Part shown: piece by piece, positions 12,519 to 54,290 of the stretch
How positions within the stretch are numbered: the first letter of the stretch is position 1
How the letters are laid out: each line of letters opens with the position of its first letter
Assembly: GCF_004340205.1 (NCBI RefSeq)
Contig: NZ_SLWB01000002.1
Span: 1 to 64,000 of the forward strand
Length of the DNA stretch: 64,000 nt
From: Acetobacteroides hydrogenigenes
Lineage (GTDB): Bacteria; Bacteroidota; Bacteroidia; Bacteroidales; ZOR0009
Direction of reading: 5' to 3'
The notes under the pieces: generated by a model
The model's database searches: none
What the model saw: only the letters and a program-made list of their open reading frames with translations
Told to the model about the DNA's origin: nothing
Made by a program: the position numbers and the translations under genes

Positions 12519-12881
12519 AACCACATCTAATCGTTTAAAGTTTTGAAGCCTATAACAGAAGTAGCATGCAGCATACTACGAGTAGTATACAACCCAACCC
12601 GAAAACACCCCATCACGGGAGCTCTGATTTGGGGCATCGATGCGCTGCCCCTCGAAGCGTTGGCGCTCCCAGCACCCCCGTTATACGCCACCTGATCGAC
12701 CTGTTGATAACTTTTTTTGCAAATCCTTTGTAGGTTAAATTACGTTATTTATTTTAGGAATCGATACGAGATGCTCTTAGCCAGCACTCTGACGCTCTTT
12801 GAAAGATCAACACTTGCTTGCTCTTTACGGGATGGACATTGCTTCCCTCCCTTTCAAATCATTTTTTTAATCATACTTCCC
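12519..12881. other. Intergenic region between the Spy-like gene and the 42-bp array
   Basis: I see no gene. The region should contain the minus-strand promoter of the Spy-like gene, but no exact TAnnTTTG box is evident. It becomes AT-rich near 12700-12770. Confidence 0.5.
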
Positions 12882-13197
12882 CTATTGGGGTCGCTTCCTA
12901 CTAAGTACGGAAGGTGTTTTAGGTTCCGATTAGTGCTTCCGTAGCAGTACGGAAGGTGTTTGGGGTTCCGATTAGCGCTTCCGCAGTAGTACGGAAGGTG
13001 TTTTAGGTTCCGATTAGCGCTTCCGCAGTAGTACGGAAGGTGTTTTAGGTTCCGATTAGCGCTTCCGTAGTAGTACGGAAGGTGTTTGGGGTTCCGATTA
13101 GCGCTTCCGCAGTAGTACGGAAGGTGTTTGGGGTTTCGATTAGCGCTTCCGCAGTAGTACGGAAGGTGTTTGGGGTTTCGATTAGCGCTTCCGTACC
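12882..13197 (+). repeat. Tandem array of seven 42-bp units upstream of a DUF6261 gene
   Basis: Seven units start at 12904, 12946, 12988, 13030, 13072, 13114 and 13156; a degenerate partial unit precedes them (12882-12903). Each begins AGTACGGAAGGTGTTT and ends CGCTTCCG(C/T)AG. At every junction CTTCCGTA pairs with TACGGAAG around a 4-nt loop (GTAG or GCAG). This gives a 20-nt hairpin every 42 nt separated by about 22 nt. Units differ at few positions (TTAG/GGGG, TTCC/TTTC, C/T). No open frame crosses the array convincingly. Confidence 0.9.
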
Positions 13198-13307
13198 TAG
13201 AACAACCAACCTAAAGGGCAAACAGAAGGTCGATCTTAAAAGATGAAGATGTTGGACAAGAGGTTCTGTAGCTTATAACCTATTATCAACAACCAAAAAA
13301 TTGTCTT

Positions 13308-14036
13308 ATGAAAAGATTAGGTCTTAGTAAGTTTAGCGTTACCGATTCAGGTAGCATGGCAACTGTAGTGGAAGAAGAAGTGACCAATGCCAACCTTGTA
13401 GAGGCCAAGGAGTCGACCGAGTTTAAGGAGGTGGTTGCCGACCACGTAGAGTATCAGGAGAGCTTAGTACGGGTGAGCAAGAGCCAGAACACCGAGGTAA
13501 AAGTTGCCTCGGACAAGAATCTGGATGATGCCTGGGTGGGCATCCGGCAGATGGTGTGGGGGCTCACCTACTCGCCCGATCCGACGGTGGCGCAGAAGGC
13601 CCACCGCTTCTACGCCCTGCTCGACACCTACGGTGCCGGCGTGGAGGTGCTATCGGCCACCGAGGAGAGCGAGAAGATTGATGCTATTCTGGTGAAGCTC
13701 CTCGAGCCAGCCAACCAGCAGCTGGCGGTAGACCTAGGCGTTAAACCCTTTGTCGATCACCTGTCGGCCTGCGCCGAAACCTTCCGCCGCGACTGGGGCA
13801 ACCTGGAAGCCGATAAGGAGGCCTTCCGCAACAGCACCTCGGCCTCCAACAGCCGCCGTAAGCTCGAGGCCAGCATCGTACGCTTCTTCGGTCTCGTGAC
13901 CTACAGCGCCCAGTACGCCCCCGCCAAGCGCGAGGAGTGGGCCAAGCTCGAGAGCGCCATCTACAGCCGCTACCTCACCATCCGCCAGAAGTACACCGAA
14001 CCCAAGAAGAAGGACGACACCACCCCTACCAAGTAG
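13308..14036 (+). CDS. DUF6261-family protein (paralogue A)
   Basis: A 242-residue, probably cytoplasmic, helical protein with no signal peptide or membrane segment. The first 80 residues are acidic (VVEEEV, VEAKESTEFKEVV). A helical core follows (LLDTYG near 105; FVDHLSACAETFRRDW), and the tail is basic and low-complexity (PKKKDDTTPTK). It aligns with the protein at 26810-27559, for example at LLDTYG/LLETYG and the C-terminal helix, and I recognise both as DUF6261, a Bacteroidota family of unknown function. The start is 110 bp after the 42-bp hairpin array, as in the other locus. G/C-rich codon choice suggests good expression. Confidence 0.7.
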   Translation: MKRLGLSKFSVTDSGSMATVVEEEVTNANLVEAKESTEFKEVVADHVEYQESLVRVSKSQNTEVKVASDKNLDDAWVGIRQMVWGLTYSPDPTVAQKAHRFYALLDTYGAGVEVLSATEESEKIDAILVKLLEPANQQLAVDLGVKPFVDHLSACAETFRRDWGNLEADKEAFRNSTSASNSRRKLEASIVRFFGLVTYSAQYAPAKREEWAKLESAIYSRYLTIRQKYTEPKKKDDTTPTK

Positions 14037-14055: not shown

Positions 14056-14092
14056 GGGCAGCCTGCGCAGTAACTGGTGTGGGCTGTTTTTT
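14056..14092 (+). terminator. Intrinsic terminator after DUF6261 gene A
   Basis: CAGCC and GGCTG pair and are followed by six T. Confidence 0.6.
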
Positions 14093-20414: not shown

Positions 20415-21671
20415 CTACAAACCAAACTCTTTCTTAATAGCATCAACGCTGTCAAGCTTTTCCCAGGTGAAGAACTCCACCTCCTTCTCAGCTTGGCAGT
20501 TGATTGGGCCAACAAGTACATTCTTCTTGTAGCACTTGTGCCCGAAGTGTCCGTAAGCAGCGGTTTCTTCGAAAATTGGGTTCTTCAACCCGAACTTCTC
20601 GATGATGCGAGCTGGACGAAGGTCGAATAGTTTATCAACCTTTTCGCTGATCTGAGCATCGGTTAGGTTAACCTTTGCAGTTCCGTAGGTATTTACATAG
20701 ATACTTACAGGACGAGCAACGCCAATAGCGTAAGCCACCTGAACAAGTATCTCTTCGGCAACACCTGCAGCAACAAGGTTCTTGGCAATGTAGCGAGCAG
20801 CGTAAGCAGCCGAGCGGTCTACCTTCGACGAGTCTTTACCCGAGAATGCGCCACCACCGTGAGCACCCTTGCCACCGTAGGTATCTACGATGATCTTACG
20901 TCCGGTAAGACCGGTATCTCCGTGAGGACCTCCAATAACAAACTTTCCGGTTGGATTTACGTGAAGGATGATATCGTCAGTGAAGAGCTTTTGGGTACGT
21001 TCTGGAAGAAGCGCCTTAACACGTGGAATAAGGATGCTCTTAACATCAGCCTTAATCTTTGCCAACATCACCTCATCCGCATCAAACTCGTCGTGCTGAG
21101 TAGAAACAACGATAGTGTGGATGCGCTCTGGATGGTTATTTTCGTTATACTCGATGGTAACCTGCGACTTAGCATCTGGGCGGAGGTAGGTCATTTCCTT
21201 ACCCTCGCGGCGGATCTTTGCAAGCTCCTGAAGCAACATGTGCGAGATGGTTAGCGATAGCGGCATATACTCATCGGTTTCGCTACATGCGTAACCAAAC
21301 ATAAGACCTTGGTCGCCTGCACCCTGTTCGCCTGCACCCTTTTCCTCTTGGGTTACACCACGGTTAATGTCAGGCGATTGCTCGTGAATGGTAGAGATAA
21401 CACCACAAGAGTCTCCATCGAATTTATACTCAGCCTTGTTGTAACCAATTCGGTTGATAACCTTACGCGCAACTTCCTGAACGTCTACGTAAGCCTCAGA
21501 GCGTACCTCGCCGCTGATAACCACCAAACCGGTAGTAACGAGCGTTTCGCAAGCCACCTTCGAGTTAGGGTCTTGGCTTAGGAACTGATCGAGAATTGCA
21601 TCGGAAATTTGATCGGCTACCTTGTCTGGATGTCCTTCGGATACAGACTCAGATGTAAATAAGTATCCCAT
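20415..21671 (-). CDS. metK: S-adenosylmethionine synthase
   Basis: A 418-residue enzyme that makes S-adenosylmethionine from ATP and methionine. Signature motifs are [12 protein letters not shown] (about 115-126) and [16 protein letters not shown] (about 272-287). The N-terminal [20 protein letters not shown] is intact. Length is slightly longer than the enterobacterial enzyme, as in other Bacteroidota. A TACCTTTG box lies at 21793-21800. Confidence 0.97.
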
Positions 21672-21792
21672 TTCTTGTTAAGCTGTTTTTGATTAAACAA
21701 TAATGAGAAAGGATTTTAGGATGGACAGAAATACTAGGTTTTAGCATTTTTTTCTGTGGTTGCAAGCATCCAAATCTTTCCACATAAGCGCA

Positions 21793-26463: not shown

Positions 26464-26481
26464 CGGAAGCAGCCGAAGCCC

Positions 26482-26687
26482 TGTCTAACACTAGACAGAG
26501 TCCATGCGCCCTGCAGGAAGGCTGTCTAATCCTAGACAAGGGCTATGCACACCTCAGGAGGCTTGTCTAACGCTAGACGGCGGCCATGCAGCGCTGCAGG
26601 AAGGTTGTCTAGCCCTAGACCGAGCCCATGCAGCCTGCAGGAAGGCTGCCTAAATCTAGGTAAAGGCTACGCAGCCATCCGAAAGCC
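26482..26687 (+). repeat. Tandem array of five 41-42-bp hairpin units upstream of the second DUF6261 gene
   Basis: Units start at 26482, 26523, 26564, 26606 and 26647. Each opens with TGTCTA-NNNN-TAGAC(A), a stem with a 4-nt loop whose loop varies (ACAC, ATCC, ACGC, GCCC, AATC), and continues with a CATGCAGCCTGCAGGAAGG-like tail. In the fifth unit both arms change (TGCCTA ... TAGGTA), preserving one pair through a compensatory change and another as G-T. The array starts just after the hydrolase stop. It shares unit length and design, but not sequence, with the array at 12904-13197. Confidence 0.88.
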
Positions 26688-26809: not shown

Positions 26810-27559
26810 ATGAAAAAAGTAAGGTTTAACAGCTCTCCTGTACCATTCTTAACCTACATGGAGTTCTACCAGTTTGTAGCATCGCAGGCTAACCGCATTC
26901 ACGATTTAGGCGATACCGTACTCACCGATACCGAGCTCAAGCAGCTGGTTGCCGTGCTAATTGCGCTTTCGGGCGATTTCAACAAGCTGCTGCTGCGCGT
27001 TCAGAAGAGCCTGATCACCGACGATATCACCAAGAAGGACAAGGTGCGCGACTTTAGCATCTCGGCGCTACGCGCGGCCATTAGGAATGCCCACTACTCT
27101 ACGGACGAAGAGGTGGTGCGCTGCTCGGTTGCCCTAACCGTCCTGCTCGAAACCTACGGGGATATCGCTCGCGAGGATCTTGACACCGAAAGCGCCACCA
27201 TCGACAAGCTGGTGGAAGAGCTCGAGGGCCCAACCTACAAGCCCATGGTGGATAAGCTGCTCATTGGCGCCAACGTGGTACGCCTAAAAACCGACAACGA
27301 CACGTTTAAGAAGCTGTACAACCAGCGCTCGAACGAGGAGGTTGCCAAGGATGCCACCGACACGCGCCAGCTCCGCAACAAGGTAAACGAGCAGTACCAG
27401 CTGCTGTGCGACTACGTGCTGCTAAAGGCCCGCATGAAGGACGAGGAGCAGTACAACCAGTCGGTGCTCATCATCAACCAGGTTCGTAGCCACTACAGCG
27501 CCCTAAAGGCCCAGAGCAAGGCCGCCCAAAAGAACGACGAAAGCACTACCAAAAAGTAA
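26810..27559 (+). CDS. DUF6261-family protein (paralogue B)
   Basis: A 249-residue helical, probably cytoplasmic protein without signal or membrane segments. Its core (AIRNAHYSTDEEVVRCSVALTVLLETYG split around residue 100-130, then LRNKVNEQYQLLCDYVLLKA) aligns with the protein at 13308-14036. The tail is lysine/threonine-rich (KNDESTTKK). I place it in DUF6261, function unknown. The start lies 122 bp after the end of a hairpin array, repeating the arrangement of the first locus. A terminator follows. Confidence 0.72.
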   Translation: MKKVRFNSSPVPFLTYMEFYQFVASQANRIHDLGDTVLTDTELKQLVAVLIALSGDFNKLLLRVQKSLITDDITKKDKVRDFSISALRAAIRNAHYSTDEEVVRCSVALTVLLETYGDIAREDLDTESATIDKLVEELEGPTYKPMVDKLLIGANVVRLKTDNDTFKKLYNQRSNEEVAKDATDTRQLRNKVNEQYQLLCDYVLLKARMKDEEQYNQSVLIINQVRSHYSALKAQSKAAQKNDESTTKK

Positions 27560-38725: not shown

Positions 38726-41080
38726 TTATCGTCTTCTTCGCTTTCCTTTATCCTTCTTATCTCCTTTTGATTTGGATGATGAGCGTCTCCCGCCTCTTTC
38801 AGATTTCTTTTCACCTGAGCGTCCTCTCGCTGAAGAACCACGGCCCGAAGAGAATCCGCCTCCGTTTCCACCTCTTGAGCCGCCACCTGCGGGGCGTGGT
38901 GCGGCGGGCTCGAAGCTGAGCACCTCATCGCCCTTGCCGATGAGCTCATAGTCGAGCTGCTTGCGCGAGAGGTTGGCGCGTAGCACGCGGATGCGCACCT
39001 CGTCGCCCAGGGTAAAGGTGCGGCCGTTGGTTTTGCCCACCAGGCTGTAGGTATCCTCGTCGAAGATGTAGAAGTCGTCGGTAAGGTCGCGGGTCGAAAC
39101 CATGCCCTCCACCTTGTTCTCCTTTATCTCCACGTAGATACCCCACTCGGTGATGCCCGATACGATACCGTCGAACTCCATCCCGATCTTATCCATCATA
39201 AACTCCACCATCTTGTACTTGATGGAGGCACGCTCGGCATCCGAGGCGAGGATTTCCATTTCGGAAGAGTGCTCGCACAGCTGCTCGTAGGTATCCTTGC
39301 TCTGCGATTCGGCCTTGCGGTCGTACATGTCGAGCAGGCGGTGCACCATCACATCAGGGTAGCGGCGGATGGGCGAGGTGAAGTGCGTATAGTGGTCGAA
39401 CTGTAGCCCGTAGTGACCGATGTTCTCCGTAGAATAGCGCGCCTTGGCCATCGAGCGGACGGCCAGCGTTTCGATAAGGTTCTCCTCCGTCTTCCCCTTA
39501 ACTTCGGCCAGCAGCTTGTTCAACTCCTTCGAGATGCCCTTGCTGTTGGTGGCCTGAAGGTAGTAGCCAAACTTCACGATAAAGCGGCGGAAGGTATCGA
39601 ACTTATCGGGGTTGGGCACGTCGTGGATACGGTACACAAAGGTTTTTGCAATGCTCTTGCCCCTAGGCTTGCCGATATGCTCGGCCACCTTCTTGTTGGC
39701 CAAAAGCATGAACTCCTCGATGAGCTGGTTGCTCTCCTTCTGCGACTTGAAGTACACGCGCAGCGGCTTGCCGTTCTCGTCGAGCTCAAACTTGGCCTCC
39801 TCGCGGTCGAAGGCTATAGCACCATGCTTAAAGCGGTCGGAGCGCAGCTTCTGTGCTAGGGTATGCAGCGTAAGAATTTCATCCTTGTAGTCGCCATGTC
39901 CGGTTTCGATAACCTTCTGTGCCTCCTCGTAGGTAAAGCGCCTATCGGAGTGAATCACCGTACGGCCAATCCACGTGTTTAGAACGTTAGCATCCTCATC
40001 GATCTCGAAAACGGCCGAGTAGGTAAGCTTATCCTCGTTAGGGCGTAGCGAGCAGAGGTTGTTCGACAATCGTTCGGGTAGCATCGGCACGGTACGGTCT
40101 ACCAGGTACACCGATGTAGCGCGGTCTACCGCCTCCTGATCGAGTATCGATCCGGGCCTTACGTAGTGCGATACGTCGGCAATGTGCACGCCCACCTCGA
40201 TGTTGCCGTTGGGCATGCGGCGGTACGATAGCGCATCGTCGAAGTCCTTGGCATCGGCAGGGTCAATGGTAAAGGTCACTACATCGCGCATGTCGCGGCG
40301 CTTGGCTATTTCGGCAGGGGTAATATCATCTGGAATTTGCTCGGCTGCCTTGGTTACCTCCTCGGGGAAGTGGTAGGGCAAGCCGTAGTCGGCCAAGATG
40401 GCGTGCATCTCGGTTTCGTTGTTGCCCGGACGACCCAGCACCTCTACGATCTCGCCAATGGGGTTCTTACCTGCCTTGGGGATCTCAATAACCTTAACGA
40501 TTACCTTATCGCCATCCTGCGCCTCGCCGGCGCTGCGCATCGGCACGAAGATGTCGAACGGCATCTGCTTGCCGTCGGGCACCACAAAGATGTAGTTGGG
40601 CGACATCTGCACCGTGCCCACGTACTGGCGCTTGCCCTGCTCGAGGATCTCCACGATCTCGCCTTCGGGGCGCTTCTTGCCCTTGTACGGGAAGATGAAG
40701 ACGCGCACCTTGTCGCCGTGCAGCGCCTGGTTCATGTTGTTGGGGGCGATGAACACGTCCTCCTCTAGGTCGGGCGTAATTATAAACGCCGAGCCCGACT
40801 GGGTCATGTCTACTTTACCCTCGATGAAGCCGCCCTTGGTTACCACCTTGAACACGCCGTGCTCCACTTCGGTAACCATATTGCGGACCTTCAGCTCGGT
40901 GAGACAGGTCATCACCAGATGCTTTTCTCCCTCGGTCTTAAAGCCGAGCTGCTTGGCGATTGCCTTGTAGCTGTAAGCCTTATCGGGGTGGGTGGATATA
41001 ATTTCGAATATTAGCTTTTCGATGCTCTGCTTCTTAACGGCCTTGCTGCTGGCGCGGCCTTCCTTTTTGATCTTCTTCAT
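38726..41080 (-). CDS. rnr: Ribonuclease R
   Basis: A 784-residue 3'-5' exoribonuclease of the RNase II/R family. It has an N-terminal winged-helix segment (KAYSYKAIAKQLGF), cold-shock domains (about 80-225), and the RNB catalytic domain with FTIDPADAKDFDDALS and its metal-binding aspartates. An S1 domain lies near 665-745, followed by a low-complexity Gly/Arg/Lys-rich tail (GGGSRGGNGGGFSSGRG). The ATG at 41080 (MKKIKKEG) is used; the open frame continues a further 188 codons upstream through the promoter and a 21-bp repeat array, which is an artefact. Confidence 0.95.
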   Translation of the reverse strand: MKKIKKEGRASSKAVKKQSIEKLIFEIISTHPDKAYSYKAIAKQLGFKTEGEKHLVMTCLTELKVRNMVTEVEHGVFKVVTKGGFIEGKVDMTQSGSAFIITPDLEEDVFIAPNNMNQALHGDKVRVFIFPYKGKKRPEGEIVEILEQGKRQYVGTVQMSPNYIFVVPDGKQMPFDIFVPMRSAGEAQDGDKVIVKVIEIPKAGKNPIGEIVEVLGRPGNNETEMHAILADYGLPYHFPEEVTKAAEQIPDDITPAEIAKRRDMRDVVTFTIDPADAKDFDDALSYRRMPNGNIEVGVHIADVSHYVRPGSILDQEAVDRATSVYLVDRTVPMLPERLSNNLCSLRPNEDKLTYSAVFEIDEDANVLNTWIGRTVIHSDRRFTYEEAQKVIETGHGDYKDEILTLHTLAQKLRSDRFKHGAIAFDREEAKFELDENGKPLRVYFKSQKESNQLIEEFMLLANKKVAEHIGKPRGKSIAKTFVYRIHDVPNPDKFDTFRRFIVKFGYYLQATNSKGISKELNKLLAEVKGKTEENLIETLAVRSMAKARYSTENIGHYGLQFDHYTHFTSPIRRYPDVMVHRLLDMYDRKAESQSKDTYEQLCEHSSEMEILASDAERASIKYKMVEFMMDKIGMEFDGIVSGITEWGIYVEIKENKVEGMVSTRDLTDDFYIFDEDTYSLVGKTNGRTFTLGDEVRIRVLRANLSRKQLDYELIGKGDEVLSFEPAAPRPAGGGSRGGNGGGFSSGRGSSARGRSGEKKSERGGRRSSSKSKGDKKDKGKRRRR

Positions 41081-54008: not shown

Positions 54009-54057
54009 TGTGATGTGTAATGTGAGATGTGTGATGTGAGATGTGTGATGTGCGATG
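54009..54057 (+). repeat. Short TGTGATG-type tandem repeat
   Basis: About six imperfect copies of an 8-bp unit, GTGTGATG or GTGAGATG, form a microsatellite. It directly abuts a MITE-like element and may have eaten its left end. Confidence 0.7.
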
Positions 54058-54290
54058 TTTTAAAAAATAAGACTACTCCATTTCGAAGGTTATCCCCCGC
54101 TGGCGGGGGTTAGGGGGTGGATTTTCGGTAGTGTATAGTCACCATAAGCTTCGCATTTTTACCATTAACGTTCATTTTCCACCCCCTGCCCCCGCCAGCG
54201 GGGGATACGCTTTGTGCTACTACATGCTGATTCCTTTACGTCTACATCTTTTATGGAAGATGGTTTTTAAAATGTAAAATCCCTAGGGAT
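54058..54290. repeat. MITE-like element, long copy C (inverted orientation)
   Basis: Inner palindromes GTTATCCCCCGCTGG and CCAGCGGGGGATACGC face each other as in copies A and B, but the order is reversed. The right end, TTTTTAAAATGTAAAATCCC, is recognisable; the left end is lost next to the microsatellite. It lies between radA and the M16 peptidase gene. Confidence 0.7.

Follow-up and report, generated by a model that had tools for sequence, protein, structure and literature searches.

DUF6261 genes of Acetobacteroides and other Bacteroidota are paired with private tandem arrays of about 42-bp dyad units, the candidate binding sites of the encoded proteins

We analysed a window of 64,000 nucleotides from the genome of Acetobacteroides hydrogenigenes, in which two genes coding for DUF6261 proteins are each found downstream of a tandem array of short units with dyad symmetry. 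The features of the two loci, all on the forward (+) strand, are:

12727..12757, +: promoter-like site of the Bacteroidetes type (TTTG-N19-TATTTTAG), read from the sequence, in a region conserved in the orthologue L108
12793..12808, +: boxA-like antitermination motif CGCTCTTTGAAAGATC, with the same 16 nt in L108
12904..13197, +: gene-linked array of seven 42-bp units with the dyad CTTCCGTA-4-TACGGAAG and the conserved segment GGTTCCGATTAG
13308..14036, +: DUF6261 gene, 242 aa (PF19775, E 6.6e-14)
14060..14092, +: likely terminator (AGCC...GGCT, then a T run), read by eye
26475..26653, +: array linked to the other DUF6261 gene, with 41-bp units and the dyad TGTCTA-4-TAGACA
26810..27559, +: the other DUF6261 gene, 249 aa (PF19775, E 1.8e-35)

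The first array was delimited by TRF to 12904-13193 (6.9 copies, 95% matches). Its last left arm ends at position 13197, leaving a gap of 110 bp to the start of the DUF6261 ORF at 13308, and the encoded protein matches PF19775 with 52.5 bits against a Pfam gathering cut-off of 27. The original prediction of seven 42-bp units ending 110 bp upstream of a DUF6261 start is thus borne out in position and count by TRF, the ORF and the family match. It had also proposed a hairpin at each junction, with an 8-bp stem (or one mismatch) and a 4-nt loop, and indeed the junctions consist of CTTCCGTA or CTTCCGCA, 4 nt and TACGGAAG, with at least 7 of the 8 stem pairs kept in all six internal junctions. Among 79 tiles of the window, each 800 bp long, two (at 12800 and 26400) contain real arrays of the ~42-bp period class, the second likewise upstream of a DUF6261 gene, and the first array is far above chance expectation. 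A weak 84-bp signal in the tile at 40800 was judged to be no array, and an Rfam search gave no match on the first array. Elsewhere in the window, a SAM-II riboswitch (21731-21789, - strand) lies directly 5' of a methionine adenosyltransferase-like gene (20415-21671), and a 7-bp tandem repeat, TGTGATG, is present in about seven copies at 54009-54058.

The source genome (G000, 3.86 Mb) contains 33 DUF6261 genes, and all 33 have an array in the 800 bp upstream, with a best repeat distance of 40-42 bp or approximately a multiple thereof and almost always with a private unit of its own; some arrays are weak, e.g. those of L007, L020 and L034. Across about 20 Bacteroidota genomes, an array, called at a 55% identity threshold within the period class, is located upstream of the gene in 106 of 116 cases and downstream in 2 of 114, counts in which paralogues within one genome are non-independent events. 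The pattern is seen again in several families, outside the class and in named DUF6261 loci of Chryseobacterium, Kaistella, Pedobacter and Tangfeifania, and the array period is restricted to 40-43 bp. Arrays are thus present upstream of orthologous DUF6261 genes in relatives, in line with the conserved array originally predicted. The protein family is patchy, being found in 12 of the 395 genomes that were sampled from the phylum, in 8 of 60 relatives and in none of 14 control genomes, and is strongly expanded in this genus only, with 18 to 38 matches per genome. Within the genus, a unit similarity of at least 0.8 is seen only at protein identities of at least 60%, no pair below 60% shares a unit, and similar units are confined to orthologues and very close paralogues. 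About 27 orthologue pairs connect G000 with G002, the genome of a sister species, and since flanks are conserved for 20 of these, most DUF6261 genes are inherited vertically. In the near-identical pair L018/L021, a recent duplication took promoter region, array, gene and terminator as one. The L085 gene of G002 is 94% identical to that of L008, which has seven units, yet L085 has no array; here, the array is lost and the gene kept.

Several loci have further features. A 41-bp array (TGCTTATTTAAAAAAAAGG...) lies downstream of the DUF6261 gene of L006 (2139-2276) and differs from the upstream array of this locus. At Chryseobacterium loci such as L153, L154 and L167, the upstream ORF ends in a coiled-coil-like stretch (EQYEERIKEL...) and the array begins right after it; this ORF possibly codes for a regulator. 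At the Pedobacter loci L180, L184 and L185, a short conserved ORF (MKITGMIREPPRSA...) extends into the first array unit. Single arrays, e.g. in Pedobacter soli, do read openly; the idea that the arrays are a protein-coding repeat was rejected, as periods of 40, 41 and 43 bp break the frame.

DUF6261 proteins are mostly 230-340 aa long and very divergent. PF19775 was matched by 30 of the 30 members of our alignment A1 and was the only Pfam family above the cut-off. Besides the start methionine, a single arginine is nearly invariant among these 30 members, and the near-absence of invariant residues argues against an enzyme. AlphaFold2 predicts an elongated all-helical bundle (pLDDT 87 and pTM 0.63 for the L153 protein, pLDDT 81 for the second protein of the window). 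Fold searches of DUF6261 models against the PDB and viral models gave no significant match, the best VIA Z score of 10.1, to helical sensor domains, being within the common helical-bundle range; the protein therefore has no recognisable DNA-binding fold. The median pI of 6.2 is neutral to acidic and is no help to a DNA-binding reading. PADLOC returned one weak unrelated match only, PHROGs gave only weak matches, involving one distant member, and searches for related loci with alignments A4 and A5 yielded no matches. In the literature other than subscription journals and preprints, DUF6261 is mentioned in one unrelated paper and no description of such arrays was found.

Arrays also occur away from DUF6261 genes. 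The unit of the first window array is found in two further arrays of G000 (C1:170613-170870 and C5:146515-146808) and as one relic unit on C12. In total, we identified 36 orphan arrays of private types, 19 in G000 (17 in a search with 24 array types, plus two of the window family) and 17 in G002 (23 types), in searches that cover known array types and miss arrays of other types. All 36 lie between ordinary genes, in 20 tandem, nine convergent and seven divergent gaps and in either orientation, some of them directly 3' of a terminator-like hairpin. Their unit number and period resemble those of the gene-linked arrays, and they amount to about 0-4 per array family; no DUF6261 gene or gene remnant lies near any orphan array of G000. 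Extra arrays were also found in G031, Pedobacter soli and Chryseobacterium cheonjiense; of the extra arrays outside G000 and G002, two were checked and neither has a DUF6261 gene beside it. Recurrence of the unit at many unrelated intergenic sites would speak against the original prediction; the unit does occur elsewhere, but at few sites, each within the family of one DUF6261 paralogue. A regulon marked by the orphan arrays was considered and rejected, as the arrays are not consistent in side, in orientation or in the type of gene. The orphan arrays L193 and L194, which belong to the L022 family, contain two unit types per array, with the palindromes TGCATACATA and CCCATAGGGA on one backbone.

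For three families, we found that the stems differ between the two species and are common to the gene-linked and orphan arrays within each genome. In the window family, the three G000 arrays have CTTCCGTA/TACGGAAG in common, whereas the four G002 arrays (the gene-linked one and three orphans) have CCCGA/TCGGG; in register, 3 of 7 stem pairs are changed on both sides. An orphan of this family located between mazG and crp is syntenic in G000 and G002, with flanking proteins 92-94% identical, and two of the G002 orphans contain traces of the G000-type stem at the array edges. In the L005/L069 family, TGTCTA/TAGACA is found in two G000 arrays and GTACTG/CAGTAC in five G002 arrays, both sides being changed in 4 of 6 stem pairs. 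The third family, L010/L086, has AACAC/GTGTT versus TTGTA/TACAA, a difference taken from a separate reading of the arrays, the automatic axis having picked a different dyad here; one orphan of this family, next to htpG, is syntenic, and array edges retain remnants of the other stem type. Stems are unchanged in other families, e.g. L011/L083 and L014/L092. When unlinked arrays within one genome are compared in eight families, identity is 91% in the stem, 66% in the loop and 69% in other columns, a comparison that favours stems somewhat since the stem columns were picked from consensus units. The high stem identity and the changes on both sides indicate that the sequence of the stem is important inside a genome and that its symmetry is kept on change. 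Such a joint change is as expected if each array family is recognised by its own DUF6261 protein; it might also result from a different trans factor or from gene conversion among the arrays.

Due to the gene-linked position, the private units, the orphan arrays and the joint stem change, we consider it very probable that each DUF6261 paralogue and a private family of ~42-bp arrays form a cognate pair. The conserved platform tied to DUF6261 that was originally proposed is likewise supported by the upstream arrays (106/116), the joint stem change and the stem conservation, from which binding itself would be predicted. That the protein binds duplex DNA of its own arrays is in our view the best explanation, at about even odds, and on the sequence evidence duplex DNA appears a more likely target than RNA.

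As an alternative, the arrays could be transcribed and the hairpin RNA bound by DUF6261, either as a ToxIN-like pair or for leader control of its own gene. The array lies directly upstream of one gene and on the same strand, and arrays are far more structured than shuffled sequences. In addition, the boxA motif TCTTTGA precedes 10 of 105 arrays (five orthologue pairs), together with a promoter-like site that is kept between species; it was found in none of the arrays, gaps or genes, and each of the six rRNA leaders of G002 also has the boxA core TTCTTTGAG. These ten arrays, the first window array included, are probably transcribed within a long leader. The earlier placement of the array in a leader is hence plausible at the window locus, where the promoter-like site and boxA lie 5' of the array and are conserved in the orthologue, but it is not general, because at 14-15 of 105 other loci, against an expectation of 1.4, a promoter match of the Bacteroidetes type lies 3' of the array and 5' of the gene. 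If RNA hairpins were selected on the gene strand, G-U mismatches should be tolerated above A-C. The G-U:A-C ratio is 172:168 for all chosen stems, 64:70 for strong stems and 10:22 for the boxA group, and a separate count of 91:59 leans weakly towards sense G-U. Strand asymmetry is absent in two of three mismatch counts and also in folding energy, which is lower in sense for 49 of 105 arrays (p 0.67). Furthermore, loop-free dyads are about as frequent as dyads with a 4-base loop, the orphan arrays have no boxA (0/36) or fixed orientation and some lie directly behind a terminator-like hairpin, and the part conserved within a genome is the stem sequence and not the loop. Mismatch counts, folding, loop-free dyads, orphan placement and the narrow period range of 40-43 bp therefore favour duplex DNA, and we regard the binding of hairpin RNA as unlikely. 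The suggestion that the array is a source of small RNAs is likewise not supported, given that G-U is not preferred in the strong stems of the gene strand (with the weak lean of the one count above), that folding is equally good for both strands and that boxA is missing from the orphans. The mean profile is also elevated at a second dyad axis, offset by half a unit (1.90 vs 1.45), which was kept out of the main argument because it is partly forced by geometry.

The arrays might also be REPIN-like, self-maintaining repeats that DUF6261 helps to copy or homogenise, any benefit to the host being secondary. The repeats are indeed private, dispersed in intergenic DNA and each tied to one vertically inherited gene, their unit number is variable, array interiors are homogenised with older stems at the edges, and the relic unit on C12 of G000 lies where G002 seems to hold a full array. 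However, the protein lacks a transposase domain and almost none of its residues is invariant, orphan arrays number only about 0-4 per family and no freshly inserted copy was found, and we consider this explanation improbable. It is very unlikely that the orphans are former DUF6261 loci whose stems changed by gene conversion and without protein recognition: their unit number and period are similar to those of gene-linked arrays, and L085 illustrates that gene and array can part, but gene remnants are missing beside the G000 orphans, the promoter-boxA part is absent, and the orphan stems are intact and better conserved than the spacers, which gene conversion would copy too.

Assuming that DUF6261 proteins recognise duplex DNA, we speculate that the elongated helical bundle, probably as a dimer or higher oligomer, sits on the dyads of its own arrays. 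The array period corresponds to about four helical turns, which would place successive units on one face of the helix, so that several proteins could line up along the array. Binding to the array beside the gene could lead to autoregulation of DUF6261, and the orphan arrays could be anchoring sites through which the protein gathers or bridges distant intergenic loci. A drift in protein specificity would then pull all arrays of a family to a new stem. Bridging or chromosome organisation is a possible cellular role, to which we give less than even odds. With similar reserve, one might speculate that a single chromosome holds about 33 parallel and largely orthogonal protein-DNA addressing systems: every DUF6261 protein would be specific for its own dyad arrays, phased at 42 bp, and would bring distant loci together, and protein-array co-evolution in trans would be so rapid that sister species have come to use different addresses. 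The gene-array pairs would be a co-evolving protein-repeat system of a new kind, with many instances in single genomes and a distribution across Bacteroidota. That unlinked arrays change jointly is a natural experiment on how a binding protein and its sites shift specificity together, and orthogonal protein-array pairs could serve as DNA addresses. A large uncharacterised Bacteroidota family thereby gains a concrete, testable partner. We know of no described system of this make-up, and the DUF6261 gene-array pairs apparently represent an undescribed one.

In plasmid centromere systems of the ParR-parC type and in iteron-Rep systems, tandem repeats 5' of a gene are the binding sites of its product, and protein and helically phased sites form specific, co-evolving pairs. 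DUF6261 resembles these systems in its upstream tandem repeats and co-varying stems, binding being predicted here. Unlike ParR-parC, DUF6261 is chromosomal, reaches up to 38 matches per genome, has unlinked arrays and shows no fold match, and no partner of the kind of the ParR-parC motor gene was noticed beside DUF6261 genes in an inspection short of a systematic neighbour survey. In the type III toxin-antitoxin system ToxIN, too, a single gene directly follows a short repeat array; the toxin, ToxN, is an endoribonuclease that has the type II RNase-toxin fold, and an RNA pseudoknot serves as antitoxin (PMC8860590). DUF6261 shares the tandem repeats directly upstream, but it is all-helical, its dyads have no clear strand asymmetry and orphan arrays exist elsewhere. 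We rejected membership in the type III toxin-antitoxin systems, since only DUF6261 passes the Pfam cut-off, the model is all-helical and PADLOC gave one weak unrelated match. In RAYT-REPIN systems, a protein gene is accompanied by a private family of short inverted repeats, which are scattered in intergenic DNA at dozens to hundreds of sites and vertically inherited, with conserved arms and variable spacers (PMC8049555, PMC3116915). Similarly, DUF6261 has private inverted repeats dispersed in intergenic DNA, with conserved arms and variable spacers. In contrast to RAYT-REPIN, no Y1/HUH transposase domain was found by Pfam in 30 DUF6261 members, the repeats form tandem arrays with a 40-43-bp period, one of them directly upstream of the gene, and there are few sites per family and dozens of parallel systems per genome. 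By analogy, the DUF6261-array system may work somewhat like RAYT-REPIN or ParR-parC pairs.
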